NCBI GenBank assembly: GCA_945871915.1
Contig: CAMBXO010000003.1
Span: forward strand, 62,001 to 126,000
Source of the DNA: Singulisphaera sp. GP187
GTDB lineage: Bacteria > Planctomycetota > Phycisphaerae > Phycisphaerales > SM1A02
Direction of reading: 5' to 3'
DNA: 64,000 bases
Shown here: positions 34,401 to 42,560 of the stretch, piece by piece
Layout: every line of letters starts with the position of its first letter
Numbering within the stretch: position 1 is the stretch's first letter
The notes under the pieces: model-generated
What the model saw: the letters and a program-made list of their open reading frames with translations, nothing else
Told to the model about the DNA's origin: nothing
The model's database searches: none
Translations under genes and position numbers: made by a program

Positions 34401-35044
34401 AAACCAAGTGCCGCCGCCTGTGCAATGGCCGCGGCCGGTTCGGGCGTTGGAGTTTCACCCACTCGCTGAATCTGGCGAAGGCGAAGCAGTCGTTCTGCTG
34501 CAAGAAGTGATTGTCTGGTTGCGGCGGCGTCGATTCCACCTGCGGCAAGTGCTTCGGCATCAAACGGCATCTCGGCCAGCACGCGCCCCCATGCCTCGCC
34601 AGCAAGGTCGCGTCGACTCACCACATCAAGAAATCGCGCCAACTCCCGCCACGCCGCCGTGTCAGCTGGAATACGACGCACATGGTCGGCGAGCAATCGA
34701 ATCGCTGCATCCGGTTCCTGTCGCGCCATAGCGGCTCGCGCGGCGAGAATGGTTTCACTTGGCGGCAAGGGAGCAATCTGTTCCGCATGGTCCCGCAGTG
34801 GAGAGAGCGCGGCGGACACCTGTTCAAGCGACTTGTACGCAAGATCCGGGTCCGCATTGGGCAACCCATCCAGCCACGACGGCCGCGGGGGCATGTGGGC
34901 TGGCGGATCAATCTTTTCGTCAGTGGCGAGTGCCTGAAGCGCCGCCATAGAGCGGGGTCCGGGTGCATGGCACGCATTGAGCAGTATCGCAGTGAGGACC
35001 ACCACGATGAAACATGGTCGATCAGCCGCGGTCGAACGAATCAC
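31496..35044 (-). CDS. Very large TPR-repeat lipoprotein
   Basis: 1182 aa. N-terminal lipobox (VVLTAILLNACHAPG), many alanine-rich helical TPR-like repeats (e.g. SAEKLFEQAIALDPTLGEALNNLAWLRIARGQLD). Confidence 0.8.
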   Translation of the reverse strand: MIRSTAADRPCFIVVVLTAILLNACHAPGPRSMAALQALATDEKIDPPAHMPPRPSWLDGLPNADPDLAYKSLEQVSAALSPLRDHAEQIAPLPPSETILAARAAMARQEPDAAIRLLADHVRRIPADTAAWRELARFLDVVSRRDLAGEAWGRVLAEMPFDAEALAAGGIDAAATRQSLLAAERLLRLRQIQRVGETPTPEPAAAIAQAAALGLSLREIGHLQAAAECLMEAANGSMKMQGIEAAAIRRQAGELQRIAGECLMAVGQYESACTSLRVACAEAGPEDRVALPRFVWALCSAGKPMTAAFELAHVLQHPSAAARTGAPAAAMVLAHCTDDSWLQCLAPAPCDVVAQRIRLKQTSDHASACGDTPIESLLQGGQRPDLASVCSMVAEREGLSKAIDLAWHWCQQHPWQSADMAWALRCMPASAEAIRRALNERVALKSTDQTAPANGRAETEAAWLVLAQFELQGGDAESAFAISNREGIPAEFREPFLAVAAEAAASMEDLAKVTKVSLSEPQSAELCATLAECFAALGAGEQADRFAEAAIQKNDHLPLAWIGRSQADLVSAAEDSRDRMEQDRINLDEARLSAERAWECNPNRFEGARRFLELTPPGRTNLGELRQLLRADPLADASLRELCRFEALQRVRQGQADPAQETLRALLVEDPMDHEVAAALVIASAASNSLVQLEAWLEVMTVRRPAAPALLEALVSAKARQGRLAEAVEDLRRASAADPTSAARTRALARGLVLEGRMEEGWQAMAALDSLESGPRATLERAECALRAGRTTAAAEILKQVSQCQTLTASQRSTALVVALSLPRESPQRRELLASLGQAALTSPDAGPAVVAAAMLGGEDAQAQTIAAQHAQPWDAAATMEAAQLLVDEGLLRRARSLLTLARGVAAPQEHRSLMRAEIALCAAMDDADFAEKLLNEALNKGEAPLLPEENSSHLARNISQALQLNELAGCFMLADFDSTAEKLFEQAIALDPTLGEALNNLAWLRIARGQLDAQTSGLVQRAIAARPNDTSTLDTAGWWSYLHEAEDPDLSKAVSQLKHATQGNAPSLESLDHLADALWQSGLHEDAARTWRRVVEAGTGTGLRDRSIQAFDGMQQRLWGIRAWNAASFYDARDGAAISRAQSKLKALSESQTPVLTPRVPPPTATPPSFTSPPTPSQQTP

Positions 35045-35688
35045 TTTTTCTTCTTGCCCAATCGAGGCACGCGACCACTTCCTAGGAAGCGATCGGTCGC
35101 CTTTCGCAACGCCGCGTGCGCCTGCAACGCATCCTCTGCAAGAACATGCCGCCCCAGCAATGCGGCAACTTCGACTGGATCGCCGCCATCGGAAAGAACT
35201 TCGGCTTCGGTCAGCACATCCACCGTGGCTTGGTCCACCGGAACACCGTGAATCTGCAATCCAAGCAGCAGCGTGCGACTGGCCACATAGGGAGTGATCC
35301 CAGCGAGCCCCTCAAGATATGTCTTGGCGTCTCGCTTGCTCACACTTCGCAACCGCTCCAAACTCACCTTGTGTTCTTTTTTGTAAAGATCCATCAGGGT
35401 CCGCCGCATCAGTTGGCAACGATCCCATGCCAGCGGATACCGCACGCCAATCAGTCCAACTTGTTCCTTGACCAACATGACGCGAAGGTCATTCATGTCG
35501 ACCGAACCTCGCTGCAATTTCGAGAATGCAGCAAGCCCCTGTTCGTCCGTGGCATCGGCCATCATGAAACTTTGCACCAGCAATTCCACAAGGTCGGCAA
35601 GCGGCTCGGGCGGCTTGGCGTCATGAGACTTGAGAAGTTGATTGAATTTTCCGATGGCAAGTTCGCTCTTCATGGCAGATACCGTCAT
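35041..35688 (-). CDS. HhH-GPD/endonuclease III-like protein, probably catalytically degenerate
   Basis: LEGLAGITPYVASRTLLLGLQIHGVPVDQATVDVL resembles EndoIII LPGVGRKTAN...FGWPTIAVDTH, but without the HhH lysine and C-terminal Fe-S cysteines. Confidence 0.55.
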   Translation of the reverse strand: MTVSAMKSELAIGKFNQLLKSHDAKPPEPLADLVELLVQSFMMADATDEQGLAAFSKLQRGSVDMNDLRVMLVKEQVGLIGVRYPLAWDRCQLMRRTLMDLYKKEHKVSLERLRSVSKRDAKTYLEGLAGITPYVASRTLLLGLQIHGVPVDQATVDVLTEAEVLSDGGDPVEVAALLGRHVLAEDALQAHAALRKATDRFLGSGRVPRLGKKKK

Positions 35689-36077
35689 GGGGTTCCTTCA
35701 GTCGAAGTGGGAGATCGAAGTTCCGTCAAACGAGAATCCATCTCTGCTTGACGCTTCAGTGAATCGTCGAGTTCAAATTCCAAACGAGGCATGCGGCGGA
35801 TTTCAACATGCCGGGCCATGCCTTCTTTCAGATGGCCGGCGGCGTGGCGCAAGGCATCAAGGGCGCGCGTGCCACTTCGTTCAGGCAGAACCGATACACC
35901 AACGCGCAACGCCTGACCGTCGGTCGACAGCGAAGCGCTGGCGACTGTGACAAGCGTGTCATCGAGCCGGGGATCGCTGAGGCCTTCGGAGAGCGTTTGC
36001 TGCAGCGCGCGACGAAGGGCGCTCACCACGCGGTCGGTGCTGAAGTCCTGCTCTCGATCGTGGTCGTGTCGCCTCAT
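35685..36077 (-). CDS. rbfA: Ribosome-binding factor A
   Basis: Short protein overlapping infB by 4 bp: DRVVSALRRALQQTLSEGLSDPRLDDTLVTVASASLSTDGQALRVGVSVL...RMPRLEFELDDSLKR. Confidence 0.88.
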   Translation of the reverse strand: MRRHDHDREQDFSTDRVVSALRRALQQTLSEGLSDPRLDDTLVTVASASLSTDGQALRVGVSVLPERSGTRALDALRHAAGHLKEGMARHVEIRRMPRLEFELDDSLKRQAEMDSRLTELRSPTSTEGTP

Positions 36078-38836
36078 TTTTTCTCTGGCAGCTTGCGGCT
36101 TACGGTGGTGGTGCGATAGCACTCCAGCACATCGCCTTCCTTGATGTCGTCGTAGCCCACAATCTTCATGCCACACTCATTGCCGGATCGAACCTCTTTG
36201 GCGTCATCCTTGAATCGCTTCAGCTGCTCAAGGCGACGATCCTTCTCGATCACGATTCCATCGCGTGTCACACGAATCTGTGCGTTGCGCTCGATCACGC
36301 CATCGGTCACATAGCAACCGGCGATCATGCCGACTCGGCTGATCTTGAACACCTGACGAACATCAGCGTGACCGAGCACTTCGAGCCGAACTTCCGGAGC
36401 CAAGAGACCCGAGGCCGCGCGAGTGACATCGTCCACAACTTCGTAGATGACTTCGTAGAGACGAATTTCGACGCCCTTCTGTTCCGCCAGACTTCGTGCC
36501 TTACCACTGCTGGTCACATTGAAGCCCACAATAATGGCGTTGGTGGCCGCCGCGAGCGCGACATCACTTTCGTTGATGCCGCCCACCGCGCAATGCTTCA
36601 CGCTGACGCCAACTTCGTCGGCCTTGATCTTGGACAATTCCGAACGAAGCGCTTCAGCACTGCCTTGCACATCCGCCTTCACCACCAGCGCGAGTTCCTT
36701 CACCTGAGACTTGCCCATGTGCTCAAAGATGTTGTCCAGCGTGATCTTGGGAGCCGCCAATTCAAGTTCTCGCTCCACACGCCGCCGATCCGTCGCCGCT
36801 TCTTCAGCCTCCTTCACGCTCTTGGTGCAGAAGAAATGATCGCCCGCATCGGGAAGAAGATCAATGCCGCTAATGGCAACAGGCGTACTGGGTCCCGCGC
36901 TGTCGATGCGATCGCCGTGATCGTTCACAATGTCTCGCACTCGACCGAAGGCCCGACCGATCACAACAAAGTCTCCTCGCTTGAGAAGCCCCTCTTGAAC
37001 CATCAGCCGCGCCACAGGCCCGCGACCCTCTTCGACCTGCGCCTCCAGCACGGTGCCCTGCGCGATGCCCTGGCAATCCGCCTTCAGATTCAGCACATCC
37101 GCTTGATAATCAAGCACATCCAGCAGATCCTGAATTCCGGAATTCTTCACCGCGCTGGTCTGAATCACTTCAATCTGCCCGCCCCATGGCACGGTGTTCA
37201 AACCGTGCTCCGCCAACTGGCCGTAAATGCGTTGGATATTTTTCTCAGTCGCTTCGGGCTTGTCAATCTTGTTCAGAGCCACGACGATGGGAACGTTGGC
37301 GGCCTTCGCGTGATTGATGCTCTCGATGGTCTGGGGCATCACGCCGTCGTCGGCGGCAACCACCAGCACCACAATGTCCGTCACCTTGGCTCCGCGTGAA
37401 CGCATGTTGGTGAACGCCTCGTGACCTGGCGTGTCGATAAAGGTGATCACGCGATCGCGATCCCCTGCCTTGACCGGAGTTTGGAACGCCCGCGTCGCCT
37501 GCGTGATGCCGCCTGCTTCGCCGTCGACAATATTGGTATTGCGAATTCGGTCAAGCAAACTGGTCTTGCCGTGATCGACATGGCCCATGATGGTGACCAC
37601 GGGGCTGCGAGGCCGCTCATCGGTGCGTACCCGCTCCTTGAAGCCCGCTTCAATAATTTCCGCAGCACTCTTGGCCTCTTCGATCTGAAGTTCGACATCG
37701 AACCCCAGCATGGTTTCCAACGCCTGATCCGCCGTAATCACGCTATTAATCGTTGCAACCGTGCCTTGCAGAAAGAGTTTTTTCAGGATGTCGCCCACTT
37801 TCACACCAGTCACAGAACTCAGTTCCTTAATGTGAATCGGCTCGGCAATCTTGACTGGACCCGTCGCAGGGCCAGCTGGTTTGGGCGCCTGCGAAGGGCC
37901 TCGCTTGGTTTCGGTTGATCGCTTATGCGTTCGGAAAAATCCGCCAGCACGACTGAGGCGATTTTCTCGCTCGGCAAGGTCCTGCGCGCGCCACGGCTCG
38001 GCTCCAGCTGTTTCTTCTCGCGGTCTCGCGCCCTCGCCGGCCTTGGCACGCCGTTGCGGAGGACTGCCTCGACGCTCGCCCGTTCCTCGCTGCGGCCGAT
38101 CCGATGGCGGCGCCGCACCTGGTGCACCAGCCCCAGCACCCGCGCCGCCAAATCGAGGACCGCGTGCAACCGGAGCTCCGGTGCGAGGTCGTGGCGCTGG
38201 AAGGTTTTCTGGATGTTCCACTCGAATCAACTTCGGCCCGGCCATCGATGTCTTAATTGGCTGTTCAAGTCGTGGTCCGACTGGTCGCACATCTTTGGGG
38301 CGCGTGGGCACATTGATCGTCGGCGGTGGTCCCGGCTTGAGAAAGCGTGGGCGAGCGGGTGCCGCCGGCGCGTGCACGTGAGATGGCGGTGGCGGTGGTG
38401 GATCGACCGGATGCTTTGGACTCACGGTTCGATGTGGTATCGCCGGCGACGGCGAGGCTTCGACTGGAATTGGTTTTGGATCGACCGTACGAGCGACGGC
38501 CGGTGCGATGGGAGGCGGTGGTGGAATGGTCTTGACCACCACAGGCTTGGCAACAGGACTTGATGGCGGCGTTGGTTGGGAAACCCCACGCTTTGCTTTG
38601 GTTGGTGCGGGTGCATCCACCACCGCTGTCGCCGCAACGACCGGTGCAGCAACCGCAACACTGGCAGCACCTGCGAACCAATCTCGAATCGTCTCTGCAA
38701 GGCCTGCCGACACCGTCGACTGCGGCTGCTTGACATCGTCCAATCCCTCGGTTCCGCACCGAGCGATAATTTCCTTGGACGCAATGCCGAGTTCCTTGGC
38801 CAATTGCGAGACTCGTACTTTCGCGATTTTGCTCAC
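36074..38836 (-). CDS. infB: Translation initiation factor IF-2
   Basis: [43 protein letters not shown], Pro/Ala-rich N-terminus. Confidence 0.98.
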
Positions 38837-38874: not shown

Positions 38875-40197
38875 TCAGCCCTTCGCGCCGCCTCCACCAA
38901 GAATGTCATCTGCCGCCGCCTCGGCTGCCTCATCGACCGCAGCCGATGGTGCCTCGCTCAGCAACGCATCCGCCGTGGTGGCATCTTCGGCCGCACGGGC
39001 TTCGGCTTCTTCGCGATCCTTGGCCTGCTGTTCCGCAACAATCTTGGCTCGATCACTGCATGCAGCCACAATGGCATCGGCAATCTCTGCCGTGGCCTGC
39101 AACTCATTCTCGAGCATCTCAGGACCAACCTCTTCAACATCGAACACGCTGATCAGGCCAAGAGCGCCCATTTTGTCCAGCATTTCATCGGTCACACCTT
39201 CGATGGGTCGAACGGTCTCCTCCAGCGTGGCCAATCCCTTGGCGAATTCATCTGGAGTCAGAATGTCCACGTCCCATCCAGTCAGGCGTGCAGCAAGCCG
39301 AACATTCTGTCCACGCCGACCGATCGCAAGACTCAGTTGATCCTCTCGAACAATGATGGTGGCGCGGCCCAGTTCGAAGCACAGACTCACTTCTTCCACT
39401 TCGGCGGGTTTCAGTGCGTTGGAAATCAACACCTGACTGCTTTCGTTCCAGCGAACAATGTCAATCTTTTCGCCACCGAGTTCATCCACAATGTTTCGAA
39501 TACGACTGCCACGCACACCAACGCACGCACCCACCGCATCCACTTTGCTGTCCACGCTACTCACAGCGAGTTTGGTTCGGAACCCTGGCTCGCGACTCAT
39601 GGCCTTGATCTCAATGACGCGGTCGGCAACCTCAGGCACCTCGGCCTCAAAGAGGCGGCGAATGAAATCAGGATGCGCACGACTGAGCACAATCTTCACC
39701 TGATAGCCAGCATCCCGCACATCCAGAATCAAGCACCGCACGCGATCGCCGGGCTGAAATTGCTCGCCAGGAATCTGCTCGCTGCGAGGCATGAATCCCT
39801 CGGCTCGATCGATTTGCACCACCAGTGAGCCGCCTTCGTATCGCTGCGCTGAACCGGTAACCAACTCACCTTGACGCTTGACAAATTCCTCAAGGAGGCT
39901 GTTGCGCTCTTCCTCTCGGAATTTCTGGATCATCACCTGCTTGGCCGTTTGCGCCGGAATGCGGCCCATGGCCGAGAGTGGAATGTCCTCTTGTGTGCCA
40001 TCGGCGACATTGCGCCAAATGCGAATGCCGCCACCAAGCCGATCCATTTCACAACCGAATTCCTCAAGATCCATGCTGTTGAAATGCTTGCGGGCCGCGC
40101 TGATCATGGCTTGCTCGAGGTCGGTAATCAAAATTTCGCGGTCGATATTTCGCTCCCGGGCGATGCTGTCAAGAATTCGGAGTGTTTCGCTGTTCAT
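38875..40197 (-). CDS. nusA: Transcription termination/antitermination protein NusA
   Basis: S1/KH organisation: QPGDRVRCLILDV, RAHPDFIRRLFEAEVPEVADRVIEIKA, DAVGACVGVRGSRIRNIVDELGGEKIDIVRW, AIGRRGQNVRLAARLTGWDVDI. Confidence 0.97.
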   Translation of the reverse strand: MNSETLRILDSIARERNIDREILITDLEQAMISAARKHFNSMDLEEFGCEMDRLGGGIRIWRNVADGTQEDIPLSAMGRIPAQTAKQVMIQKFREEERNSLLEEFVKRQGELVTGSAQRYEGGSLVVQIDRAEGFMPRSEQIPGEQFQPGDRVRCLILDVRDAGYQVKIVLSRAHPDFIRRLFEAEVPEVADRVIEIKAMSREPGFRTKLAVSSVDSKVDAVGACVGVRGSRIRNIVDELGGEKIDIVRWNESSQVLISNALKPAEVEEVSLCFELGRATIIVREDQLSLAIGRRGQNVRLAARLTGWDVDILTPDEFAKGLATLEETVRPIEGVTDEMLDKMGALGLISVFDVEEVGPEMLENELQATAEIADAIVAACSDRAKIVAEQQAKDREEAEARAAEDATTADALLSEAPSAAVDEAAEAAADDILGGGGAKG

Positions 40198-40249
40198 TTA
40201 AATTGTCTGCCTTCATGGGTTGAGATGTTGAATTGTCAGTAAGCAACGC

Positions 40250-40298
40250 GGAAACAAACACGGGTCACGCGTGGGGCGATTGCCCATGCGTGACCCGT
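40250..40298 (-). terminator. Long hairpin with U-rich tail upstream of nusA (terminator/attenuator candidate)
   Basis: On the minus strand ACGGGTCACGCATGGG-CAATCGC-CCCACGCGTGACCCGT (about 16-bp stem with one wobble), then GTTTGTTTCC. Confidence 0.7.
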
Positions 40299-40441
40299 CC
40301 ACTGGCGTCACCTGATTTCAGGGTGAGCCATGACGCCTTTGAAAGCAACCGCTACAAAGCGGCCTCCCAAAGAGGTCTTTCGACCCCCATCGGCGGTCCG
40401 ATGGGATTCCCATGCACGACCTGAACGCTTGAAGGCGTCAT
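40250..40441 (-). ncRNA. Candidate structured RNA / 5' leader of nusA operon (family unknown)
   Basis: ATGACGCCTT (40432-40441) closes with AAGGCGTCAT (40330-40339); between them are CCCATCGG/CCGATGGG, GGTC-GAAA-GACC and CCGCT/AGCGG hairpins, then a further hairpin and the terminator-like stem. Confidence 0.6.
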
Positions 40442-40625
40442 AGGGCGTGGGTGTTGGGCGAAGCGATGTTCATAAAACGATCATTCGGTTCAATCGAAAA
40501 GCGGACGGCTCGGTTGCACATCGCACCGAGAGGCGGAGATGGTAGCGGATTTTGCACTTTTTCTCAACCCGCACTCGCTCAACTGCGTTTCCTGCTTCAT
40601 GAAAAGCGGTTGCTACGCTCGCTTT

Positions 40626-42560
40626 ATGACAGATGGTCACCGGTCACGCATGACACGAATGTTGGCGACTGCCCTGCTTGTGGCCAGTAGCGCGATGGCC
40701 CAAACTGCAACGAAGGGCTTTGCAGTTCTTGGACAGAAGTCGTCGGACTCACAGCAAGATGTCTCGAGTGTGGTCAAGGCGAAACTGTTTCTCTCAGCCG
40801 ATGCCGTTGCACAAGGCGGCGATCTGCCTGTGGCGGTTCAGTTGACCATTGAGCCGGGATGGCATGTGTGGGCCAATGAAACGCAGGCTCGAAGTCTTCC
40901 CGACACCGCTGTGTTTGAGAGCGCCGTCTTTACATCCATCGCGCTTTCATCAACGAATGACTCGCTTCAATTGCTGGGAACACAATGGCCGCTCCCGCAA
41001 GCCATCAAGGCTGATCTTGGCGAGGGGCCACAGTCGTATGCCGTGTTTGAAGGTTCGGTCACGCTGTATGCAAAGCTGGGTGTGGCGGCTGCGGCAGCGG
41101 GAACTTTGAACGGCTCACTCACGCTCTCGTTGCAAGCCTGTACCTCAACCAATTGTGTGGCGCCGCAGGAGATCAATCTGCCACTCTCCATTCAGGTACG
41201 GCCCGGCACCAATCCTCGTTTGCACCCGGAAATCTTTGCTGGCTATGACTCGCACAAGTTGGTGAATCAGCCGGGGCCTGATGCGAACCCCGATGCGGGC
41301 GTGGACTCCGGTGCGATTCGCTTTGATATTTTCGGAACCGACTTTACGGTCGATCCCCGTGGGGCTGGATTGATCGTGTTGTTGTTGGTTGCGTTTCTCG
41401 GCGGCGGGTTGCTCAACTTTACGCCGTGCGTTCTGCCGGTGATCCCACTCAAAATCATGGCGCTGAGTGCCGCCGCTGGTGATCGCAAGCGATGTTTTCG
41501 ATTGGGCCTTTGCATGAGTCTGGGAGTGCTTGCTTTCTGGCTGGTGCTTGGCGGATTTGTGGGCGGCCTGAGCGGATTTACCGAAGCCAATCAACTCTTT
41601 CAATATCCGGCGTTCACGTTGGCACTCGGTGCCTTTATCGCTGTGATGGCTGTTGGAATGGCCGGCACATTCGCGCTTCAATTGCCCCAATGGGTGAATT
41701 CTGTCGAGGCCACGCACGACAGCCCGCGGGGAAGTTTTGTGATGGGAGTGATGACGGCCGTACTCAGCACTCCTTGCACCGCGCCACTGATGGGCGCTGC
41801 GGCGGGATGGGCAGCCAGCAGTGGAAGCCTTGCCACCGTGTTGATGGTGTTCGGAACAATCGGCGCAGGCATGGCGTCACCATACCTGCTGCTGAGCGCT
41901 GCACCTCACCTTGTTCGTAAGATGCCTCGAAGCGGTCCCGCCAGCGAATTGGTGAAGCAGGTCATGGCTCTCTTGCTGCTCGCCGCCGCAGCATTTTTTA
42001 TTGGCGCCGGTGTCAATGGATGGCTCGACACTCCAACGCGGCTTCACTGGTGGGTGGTGGGTGGTTTCGGCGCCGCTGCGGGCGTGTGGTTGCTGTGGCG
42101 AACATTCGCCATCACTTCGAGTGCAAACCGCCGCATTGTTTTCGGTGGCGTGGGCTTGGTGATCGCCACGCTGAGTCTTGGTATCACCAGTGAACTCGCT
42201 GCTCGAAGTCGAATCGATTGGATTGCCTATTCCGAACAAGCTTTGGCTACTGCCAAGGCTGAACACAAGGTGATCGTCCTTGACTTCACCGCAGAATGGT
42301 GCTTGAACTGCAAAGCACTTGAATCAGCCGTTCTCAATCGGCCTCTGGTTGCCGAGGCCATCAACGATCAGGGTGTGGCCGCCATCAAAGTGGATATCAC
42401 CAGTCGTAAGAGCGACGGATGGAATTTGCTTCACACGTTCAACCGAGTCAGCATTCCATTGCTGGTGGTGCAACGGCCCGATGGAACGGTTGTTCTGAAG
42501 AGCGATGCGTATACACCGGATCAAGTGATTACGGCGGTGAATCAGGCTCTAGCAAAGTGA
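40626..42560 (+). CDS. DsbD-like thiol:disulfide interchange protein
   Basis: N-terminal DsbD-alpha-like domain, multi-TM region (LLNFTPCVLPVIPLKIMAL, STPCTAPLMGAA), C-terminal thioredoxin VLDFTAEWCLNCKALE. Confidence 0.93.
   Translation: MTDGHRSRMTRMLATALLVASSAMAQTATKGFAVLGQKSSDSQQDVSSVVKAKLFLSADAVAQGGDLPVAVQLTIEPGWHVWANETQARSLPDTAVFESAVFTSIALSSTNDSLQLLGTQWPLPQAIKADLGEGPQSYAVFEGSVTLYAKLGVAAAAAGTLNGSLTLSLQACTSTNCVAPQEINLPLSIQVRPGTNPRLHPEIFAGYDSHKLVNQPGPDANPDAGVDSGAIRFDIFGTDFTVDPRGAGLIVLLLVAFLGGGLLNFTPCVLPVIPLKIMALSAAAGDRKRCFRLGLCMSLGVLAFWLVLGGFVGGLSGFTEANQLFQYPAFTLALGAFIAVMAVGMAGTFALQLPQWVNSVEATHDSPRGSFVMGVMTAVLSTPCTAPLMGAAAGWAASSGSLATVLMVFGTIGAGMASPYLLLSAAPHLVRKMPRSGPASELVKQVMALLLLAAAAFFIGAGVNGWLDTPTRLHWWVVGGFGAAAGVWLLWRTFAITSSANRRIVFGGVGLVIATLSLGITSELAARSRIDWIAYSEQALATAKAEHKVIVLDFTAEWCLNCKALESAVLNRPLVAEAINDQGVAAIKVDITSRKSDGWNLLHTFNRVSIPLLVVQRPDGTVVLKSDAYTPDQVITAVNQALAK

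Follow-up and report, generated by a model that had tools for sequence, protein, structure and literature searches.

In ribosome-mediated attenuators of the trp type, a leader reading frame is followed by a terminator. Attenuation of the Bacillus subtilis nusA gene is reportedly defined by the absence of an antiterminator. A review (PMC12288461, on Mondal et al. 2016) describes NusA-stimulated termination in the leader of that gene as the means of its autoregulation, and interrupted U tracts mark NusA/NusG-dependent terminators in the same species (PMC8060035). In Escherichia coli, toiL is a short reading frame (uORF), and the level at which the downstream gene is expressed is proposed to depend on its translation (PMC12121999), and the metY-nusA-infB operon is controlled by several promoters and by changes in mRNA stability (PMC6511841).

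Here, we investigated the region upstream of nusA in a 64,000-nt stretch of DNA (the window; contig CAMBXO010000003.1, positions 62,001 to 126,000) from a 2.24 Mb Phycisphaerales assembly. The Pfam matches in Table 1 identify the three downstream genes as encoding NusA, IF-2 and RbfA, in agreement with a preliminary description made from the letters alone, and the PDB structures matching the window's NusA include the NusA relatives 2ASB and 2ATW. The nusA ATG is at 40197. We propose, with a probability of about 0.6, that in Phycisphaerales the nusA-infB-rbfA mRNA has this region as its 5' leader and that the leader functions as a translation-coupled transcription attenuator. By analogy with B. 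subtilis, the attenuator is probably self-regulated by NusA-stimulated termination, and these bacteria probably use the leader to tune the amounts of NusA and initiation factor IF2. The products of nusA and infB are core factors joining transcription and translation. See Table 1 for the coordinates of all features.

Table 1. Features of the nusA leader and operon in the window, with pairing given for the cells of the genus alignment.
Feature	Positions	Strand	Remarks
Promoter-like site, TTGAGA-17 nt-TACCAT	40539..40567	-	1 found vs 0.2 expected
uORF1	40438..40473	-	11 codons (MNIASPNTHAL, stop); TGA overlaps uORF2 ATG (ATGA); overlap kept genus-wide
uORF2	40352..40441	-	29 codons (MTPSSVQVVHGNPIGPPMGVERPLWEAAL, stop); stop in P3 loop
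Closing-stem arms, ATGACGCCTT and AAGGCGTCAT	40441-40432; 40339-40330	-	
Hairpin P1, GACGC/GCGTT	40424..40439	-	begins on uORF2 start codon; 100% paired
Hairpin P2, CCCATCGG-ACCG-CCGATGGG (CCCATCGGACCGCCGATGGG)	40386..40405	-	97.9% paired; 3 pairs changed on both sides
GAAA-loop hairpin, GGTCGAAAGACC	40385-40374	-	
CCGCTTTGTAGCGG	inside 40364-40347	-	
Hairpin P3	40344..40368	-	around uORF2 stop codon; 97.2% paired; 1 pair changed on both sides
Hairpin P4	40304..40329	-	between uORF2 stop and terminator-like stem; 93.1% paired; 4 pairs changed on both sides
Terminator-like hairpin	40298-40260	-	95.2% paired; 4 covarying pairs
Interrupted U tract, GTTTGTTTCC	40259-40250	-	follows the terminator-like hairpin
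Short octamer array, GACAATTC-AACATCTC-AACCC	40217..40237	-	between terminator and nusA
nusA	38875..40197	-	first gene of operon; Pfam NusA_N and KH_5; PDB NusA matches
infB (translation initiation factor IF2)	36074..38836	-	second gene; Pfam IF-2, GTP_EFTU, IF2_N
rbfA	35685..36176	-	third gene; Pfam RBFA; true start uncertain

The preliminary description had reported a structured leader, and every sequence that it named was located in this region on the minus strand. The structure is real: at -97.5 kcal/mol, the fold of the 192 nt was equalled by none of 200 dinucleotide shuffles (-69.9 +/- 4.2 kcal/mol; z = -6.6). We then used an alignment of 12 sequences from the genus (A1), in which P1, P2, P3, P4 and the terminator-like hairpin are paired in 96.3% of cells, a percentage that is flattering because the structure was derived from the same sequences. 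The 12 pairs that changed on both sides are harder to explain away. The covariation score of these five local hairpins is 0.277 versus 0.151 in shuffles, and sliding their partners lowers pairing to about 34-41%. The covariation among relatives on which the proposal of a leader RNA was to stand or fall is present in these five genus hairpins. Other genera carry different stems at the position of P1, in 53 of 120 cases against 19.5% in controls.

The outermost helix did not hold up in relatives. The 10-bp closing stem put forward in the preliminary description is paired in 55.2% of the genus cells with covariation at shuffle level, and its full 10 bp occur only in the window's own species within A1. 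The local hairpins described inside it are all present in the window's genome, and one of them, the GAAA-loop hairpin, is not conserved in relatives. A search of the whole window found no Rfam 15 family at gathering score, as would be expected of an unassigned RNA, and a relaxed search gave chance-level matches only (the best had E 0.13 and scored 19 bits, where the cut-off is 50). Neither 6S RNA nor tmRNA matched at the locus, again as first described; tmRNA was found elsewhere in the window's genome, in which 6S RNA had no Rfam match.

The main feature of the leader was missed in the preliminary description: the hairpins sit in and around two overlapping uORFs. Among all genus members compared, uORF2 is 29-30 codons long, the sole indel inside it is 3 nt, and most indels past its stop have lengths not divisible by three. 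In most groups of relatives, substitutions in uORF2 fall evenly on first, second and third codon positions, and the peptide therefore looks unselected; selection at the peptide level was considered and rejected on this basis. The lack of a selected peptide counts against an attenuator. Since the uORF peptides are not conserved, translation itself seems to matter, and the kept feature of the leader, as judged from these comparisons, appears to be where ribosomes would start and stop.

This arrangement extends across the order. NusA searches covered 15 same-genus and 100 same-family genomes, mostly metagenome assemblies, as well as 80 further loci from GTDB contigs, and gave a discovery set of 158 distinct nusA upstream regions, oriented and with identical leaders removed. 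Later, 60 regions drawn across the order and 40 drawn across the class were fetched. In Phycisphaerales nusA leaders, the overlap between uORF1 and uORF2 is either 4 nt (ATGA) or 11 nt (ATGNNNNNTRA). The usual end of uORF2 is a start codon followed by any codon and a stop, or else the first TGA of ATGANNTGA. A rule combining the overlap with such an ending, written after seeing the discovery set, is satisfied by 95 of its 158 leaders; dinucleotide shuffles gave a mean of 2.2 (max 5), and reverse complements gave 5. With the rule frozen, 25 of 64 held-out order-level leaders carry the pattern versus 0.65 (max 4) in shuffles and 0 in reverse complements; none of these leaders shares its last 150 nt with a discovery leader, and some may still be moderately close to members of the discovery set. 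Among control windows taken from these loci (n=730), the rate was 0.8%, and thinning related leaders left 75 of 145 with the pattern against 1-6. The pattern is essentially absent in other orders of the class.

The end of uORF2 is informative about what is being kept. ATG-NNN-stop occurs in 132 of 222 leaders (9-17 in shuffles), and its frame relative to the uORF2 start is 0, 1 or 2 in 71, 5 and 19 cases when an open frame is not required, the frame-2 cases being of the overlap type. At the terminal start codon, ATG is used in 75 leaders, GTG in 15, TTG in 9 and CTG in 6, with ATG at 0.5% in background ORFs; these counts follow initiation-codon usage, not amino-acid usage. Stop codons interchange, and the uORF1 stops of the 11-nt class are TGA (40), TAA (28) and TAG (1). 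A uORF1 of exactly nine codons is found in 21 discovery and 15 held-out leaders, versus 0.3 and 0.05 in shuffles. The window's genus retains the 4-nt overlap and has the uORF2 endings TTG-TAG, CTG-TAG, TTG-TAA or CGN-TAG; on this comparison, the genus is derived and lacks the start-X-stop ending, and this point weighs against an attenuator of the kind we propose.

These data bear on whether translation is involved at all. If the RNA worked by structure only, the hairpins would be a protein or ligand site and the reading frames by-products of stems of the type ATGACGC...GCGTC. The even spread of uORF2 substitutions would fit such an RNA, and so would the position of P1, which opens on the AUG, and its covariation between genera. 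However, stems would not account for the interchange of TGA, TAA and TAG or of terminal ATG, GTG and TTG, for the 71:5:19 frame bias, or for the recurrence of a uORF1 of exactly nine codons, and we regard this explanation as quite improbable. The conservation of the start and stop arrangement across the order suggests a leader that is read by ribosomes, not one that binds a ligand.

Upstream of the uORFs, close relatives (L002 and L003) carry TTGAGA-17-TACAAT at the same place as the promoter-like site of the window, and the leader transcript is expected to start near 40530. Downstream of them lies the terminator-like hairpin, the tail of which ends 53 nt before the nusA ATG, where the preliminary description had placed a terminator-like stem about 50 nt ahead of the gene. 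Requiring a stem of >= 9 bp followed by >= 5 T in 12 nt, we found such hairpins in 98 of 222 leaders; shuffles gave 7-11, and reverse complements gave 5. The distance from the uORF2 stop to the hairpin is about 20-110 nt, with an order-wide median of 49 nt. The U tract is often interrupted across the order, and the window's tail, GTTTGTTT, fits the description of NusA/NusG-dependent terminator tracts in B. subtilis. A minority of leaders (for example, L043, L044 and L048) have a hairpin without a U tract, which speaks against the attenuator.

An antiterminator was also sought. Pairing to the 5' arm of the terminator-like hairpin reached -16.4 kcal/mol versus -16.3 kcal/mol in shuffles (p = 0.72), and a candidate first suspected from CCGTGACC/GGTCACGG in some genera showed no enrichment over shuffles. 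The lack of a conserved antiterminator can be held against an attenuator in general; for one of the B. subtilis nusA type, a terminator-like hairpin lies between the promoter-like site and nusA, and no enrichment of antiterminator pairing was seen, which is absence of evidence only. A two-state riboswitch platform is unsupported because no conserved antiterminator was found. The preliminary description had favored an aptamer closed by the 10-bp stem and joined to an expression platform, and strong folding and a terminator-like hairpin do occur together in the window's species. A metabolite riboswitch is nevertheless very improbable, given a closing helix that is not conserved, no antiterminator, no Rfam match, and a fast sequence turnover between genera that is unlike that of aptamer cores.

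A covariance model built from A1 gave one strong match per genome in 15 of 16 genus genomes, and nusA lies directly downstream of the match in 14 of these 15; the remaining genome, G002, has no NusA match in its assembly. Within the genus genomes, strong matches occur only at the nusA leader and none away from nusA. These comparisons support a conserved, covarying RNA outside Rfam that carries a terminator-like hairpin and is found only before nusA. We also considered that the unit from promoter to terminator is a stable trans-acting small RNA whose position at nusA is incidental, since it has its own promoter-like site and terminator-like hairpin and would give a highly structured product. 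Little probability attaches to this explanation: strong model matches are confined to nusA, the linkage holds order-wide while the sequence changes, and the array and spacer between the terminator and nusA are conserved too.

The array consists order-wide of 8-nt repeats just before nusA (ACAAYYCN, also written (ACAACYCA)n or (ACAACUCA)n). Units of the form ACA(A/T)(C/T)(C/T)C lie at 8-nt spacing between the hairpin and the nusA start, with 181 in the last 100 nt, where the 100-nt blocks ahead of it hold 4 and 3; the spacing is exactly 8 nt in 52 adjacent pairs. Held-out leaders have 46 units against 0-4. Two units in a row (ACAWYYCNACAWYYC) occur at two places in the window's genome, one of which is the nusA leader, and runs of three are present in 9 of 101 genomes, with all matches but one just before nusA. 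The most extreme array, in leader L081, has about nine copies of ACAACTCA before nusA. The repeats are C/A-rich and G-poor with regularly spaced YC steps, and no complementarity to 16S rRNA was found in the five genes examined. The array is almost confined to the position before nusA and offers an obvious place to look for a site of protein-RNA recognition.

The KH domains of mycobacterial NusA bind the RNA GAACUCAAUAG, which the array resembles. The rRNA leaders of these genomes, in which NusA action is expected, did not contain the octamer array, and this counts against the NusA-regulated attenuator. An argument for NusA binding by analogy with rRNA leaders was rejected for the same reason, leaving Rho or S1 equally open, and the array may bind NusA, Rho or S1. 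If it were a Rho loading site, translation of the uORFs would decide between nusA translation and premature Rho termination. The base composition, the regular YC steps and the position before the nusA start are all compatible with this, and the E. coli toiL-topAI leader offers a precedent for a uORF acting together with Rho (PMC12121999). However, the terminator-like hairpin upstream of the array would then be unnecessary, and Rho loading needs neither the exact repeated sequence nor its nusA-specificity; we consider control of this type unlikely.

In the translation-coupled attenuator that we favor, transcription would start about 50 nt upstream of uORF1. A ribosome on uORF1 would terminate on the uORF2 start codon and re-initiate on uORF2, clear P1 and P2, and stop in P3, upstream of the terminator-like hairpin. 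RNA polymerase would then either stop at the hairpin or read through into nusA. The most likely feedback would be NusA-stimulated termination at the hairpin, such that enough NusA would mean less transcription of nusA and infB, and the outcome would be adjusted by the efficiency of uORF initiation, which depends on IF2 from the same operon. The 8-nt array would be the landing site of an RNA-binding factor (the NusA KH domains, Rho or ribosomal protein S1). As to the signal, an initiation-dependent leader is of interest because IF2 is encoded in the operon. We tentatively entertain, as a doubtful extension, a start-codon relay that senses translation initiation itself, with NusA on the array as a second feedback loop; uORF1, the overlapping uORF2 and a terminal start-X-stop mini-ORF would make initiation repeated and hence IF2-dependent. 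If true, the relay would link the supplies of two factors, one for transcription and one for translation initiation, through a single RNA.

The B. subtilis nusA leader is the closest parallel, sharing an intrinsic-terminator-like hairpin, an interrupted U tract and the lack of a conserved antiterminator; only here are there overlapping uORFs, hairpins on start and stop codons and an 8-nt array, and our side of the comparison consists of sequence. As with toiL-topAI, translation of a short uORF is proposed here to govern downstream expression, but toiL acts via ribosome stalling, occlusion of a ribosome-binding site and Rho, whereas here coupled uORFs precede a terminator-like hairpin. It resembles trp-type attenuators in having a leader frame followed by a terminator, yet has no regulatory codon run, no selected peptide and no alternative antiterminator helix. 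The E. coli metY-nusA-infB operon is a further example of control of a NusA/IF2 operon, in which we know of no comparable uORF pair. The conservation of a start/stop-codon layout rather than a peptide is an unusual design, and it makes it possible to test whether a transcript gauges translation initiation. The literature that we found on uORFs and leaders, which covers the field incompletely, does not describe such a system, and the leader was unseen by the annotation tools used, as it has no Rfam match and its uORFs are below the usual gene-calling lengths.

Several side observations were made. The Rfam 6S model found nothing above its cut-off in genomes G000, G006, G014, G024, G046 and G048, all six of which gave a tmRNA match; 6S RNA may be too divergent in these genomes or absent. 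Four family genomes (G046, G056, G083 and G106) had a NusA match with one in-frame TGA in the search table, which may be due to a sequencing error, a match running past the true stop, or another cause. After rbfA, a 215-aa ORF (35041-35688, minus strand) had no Pfam match at E <= 1e-5 and by eye resembles the DNA-glycosylase/endonuclease III type. A Pfam search showed that the divergent gene on the other strand of the nusA leader is DsbD-like. The listed start of this ORF (40539, plus strand) falls inside the predicted nusA promoter, and inspection of the sequence makes a start near 40650 (plus strand; MTRMLATALLVASSAMAQ...), with a signal-peptide-like N terminus, more likely. Finally, in the 16S rRNA upstream regions (L215-L224), a boxA-like stretch, CTCTTTGAMAAGTGAACAGTTGG, is shared after the promoter and is likely a Nus-factor site.
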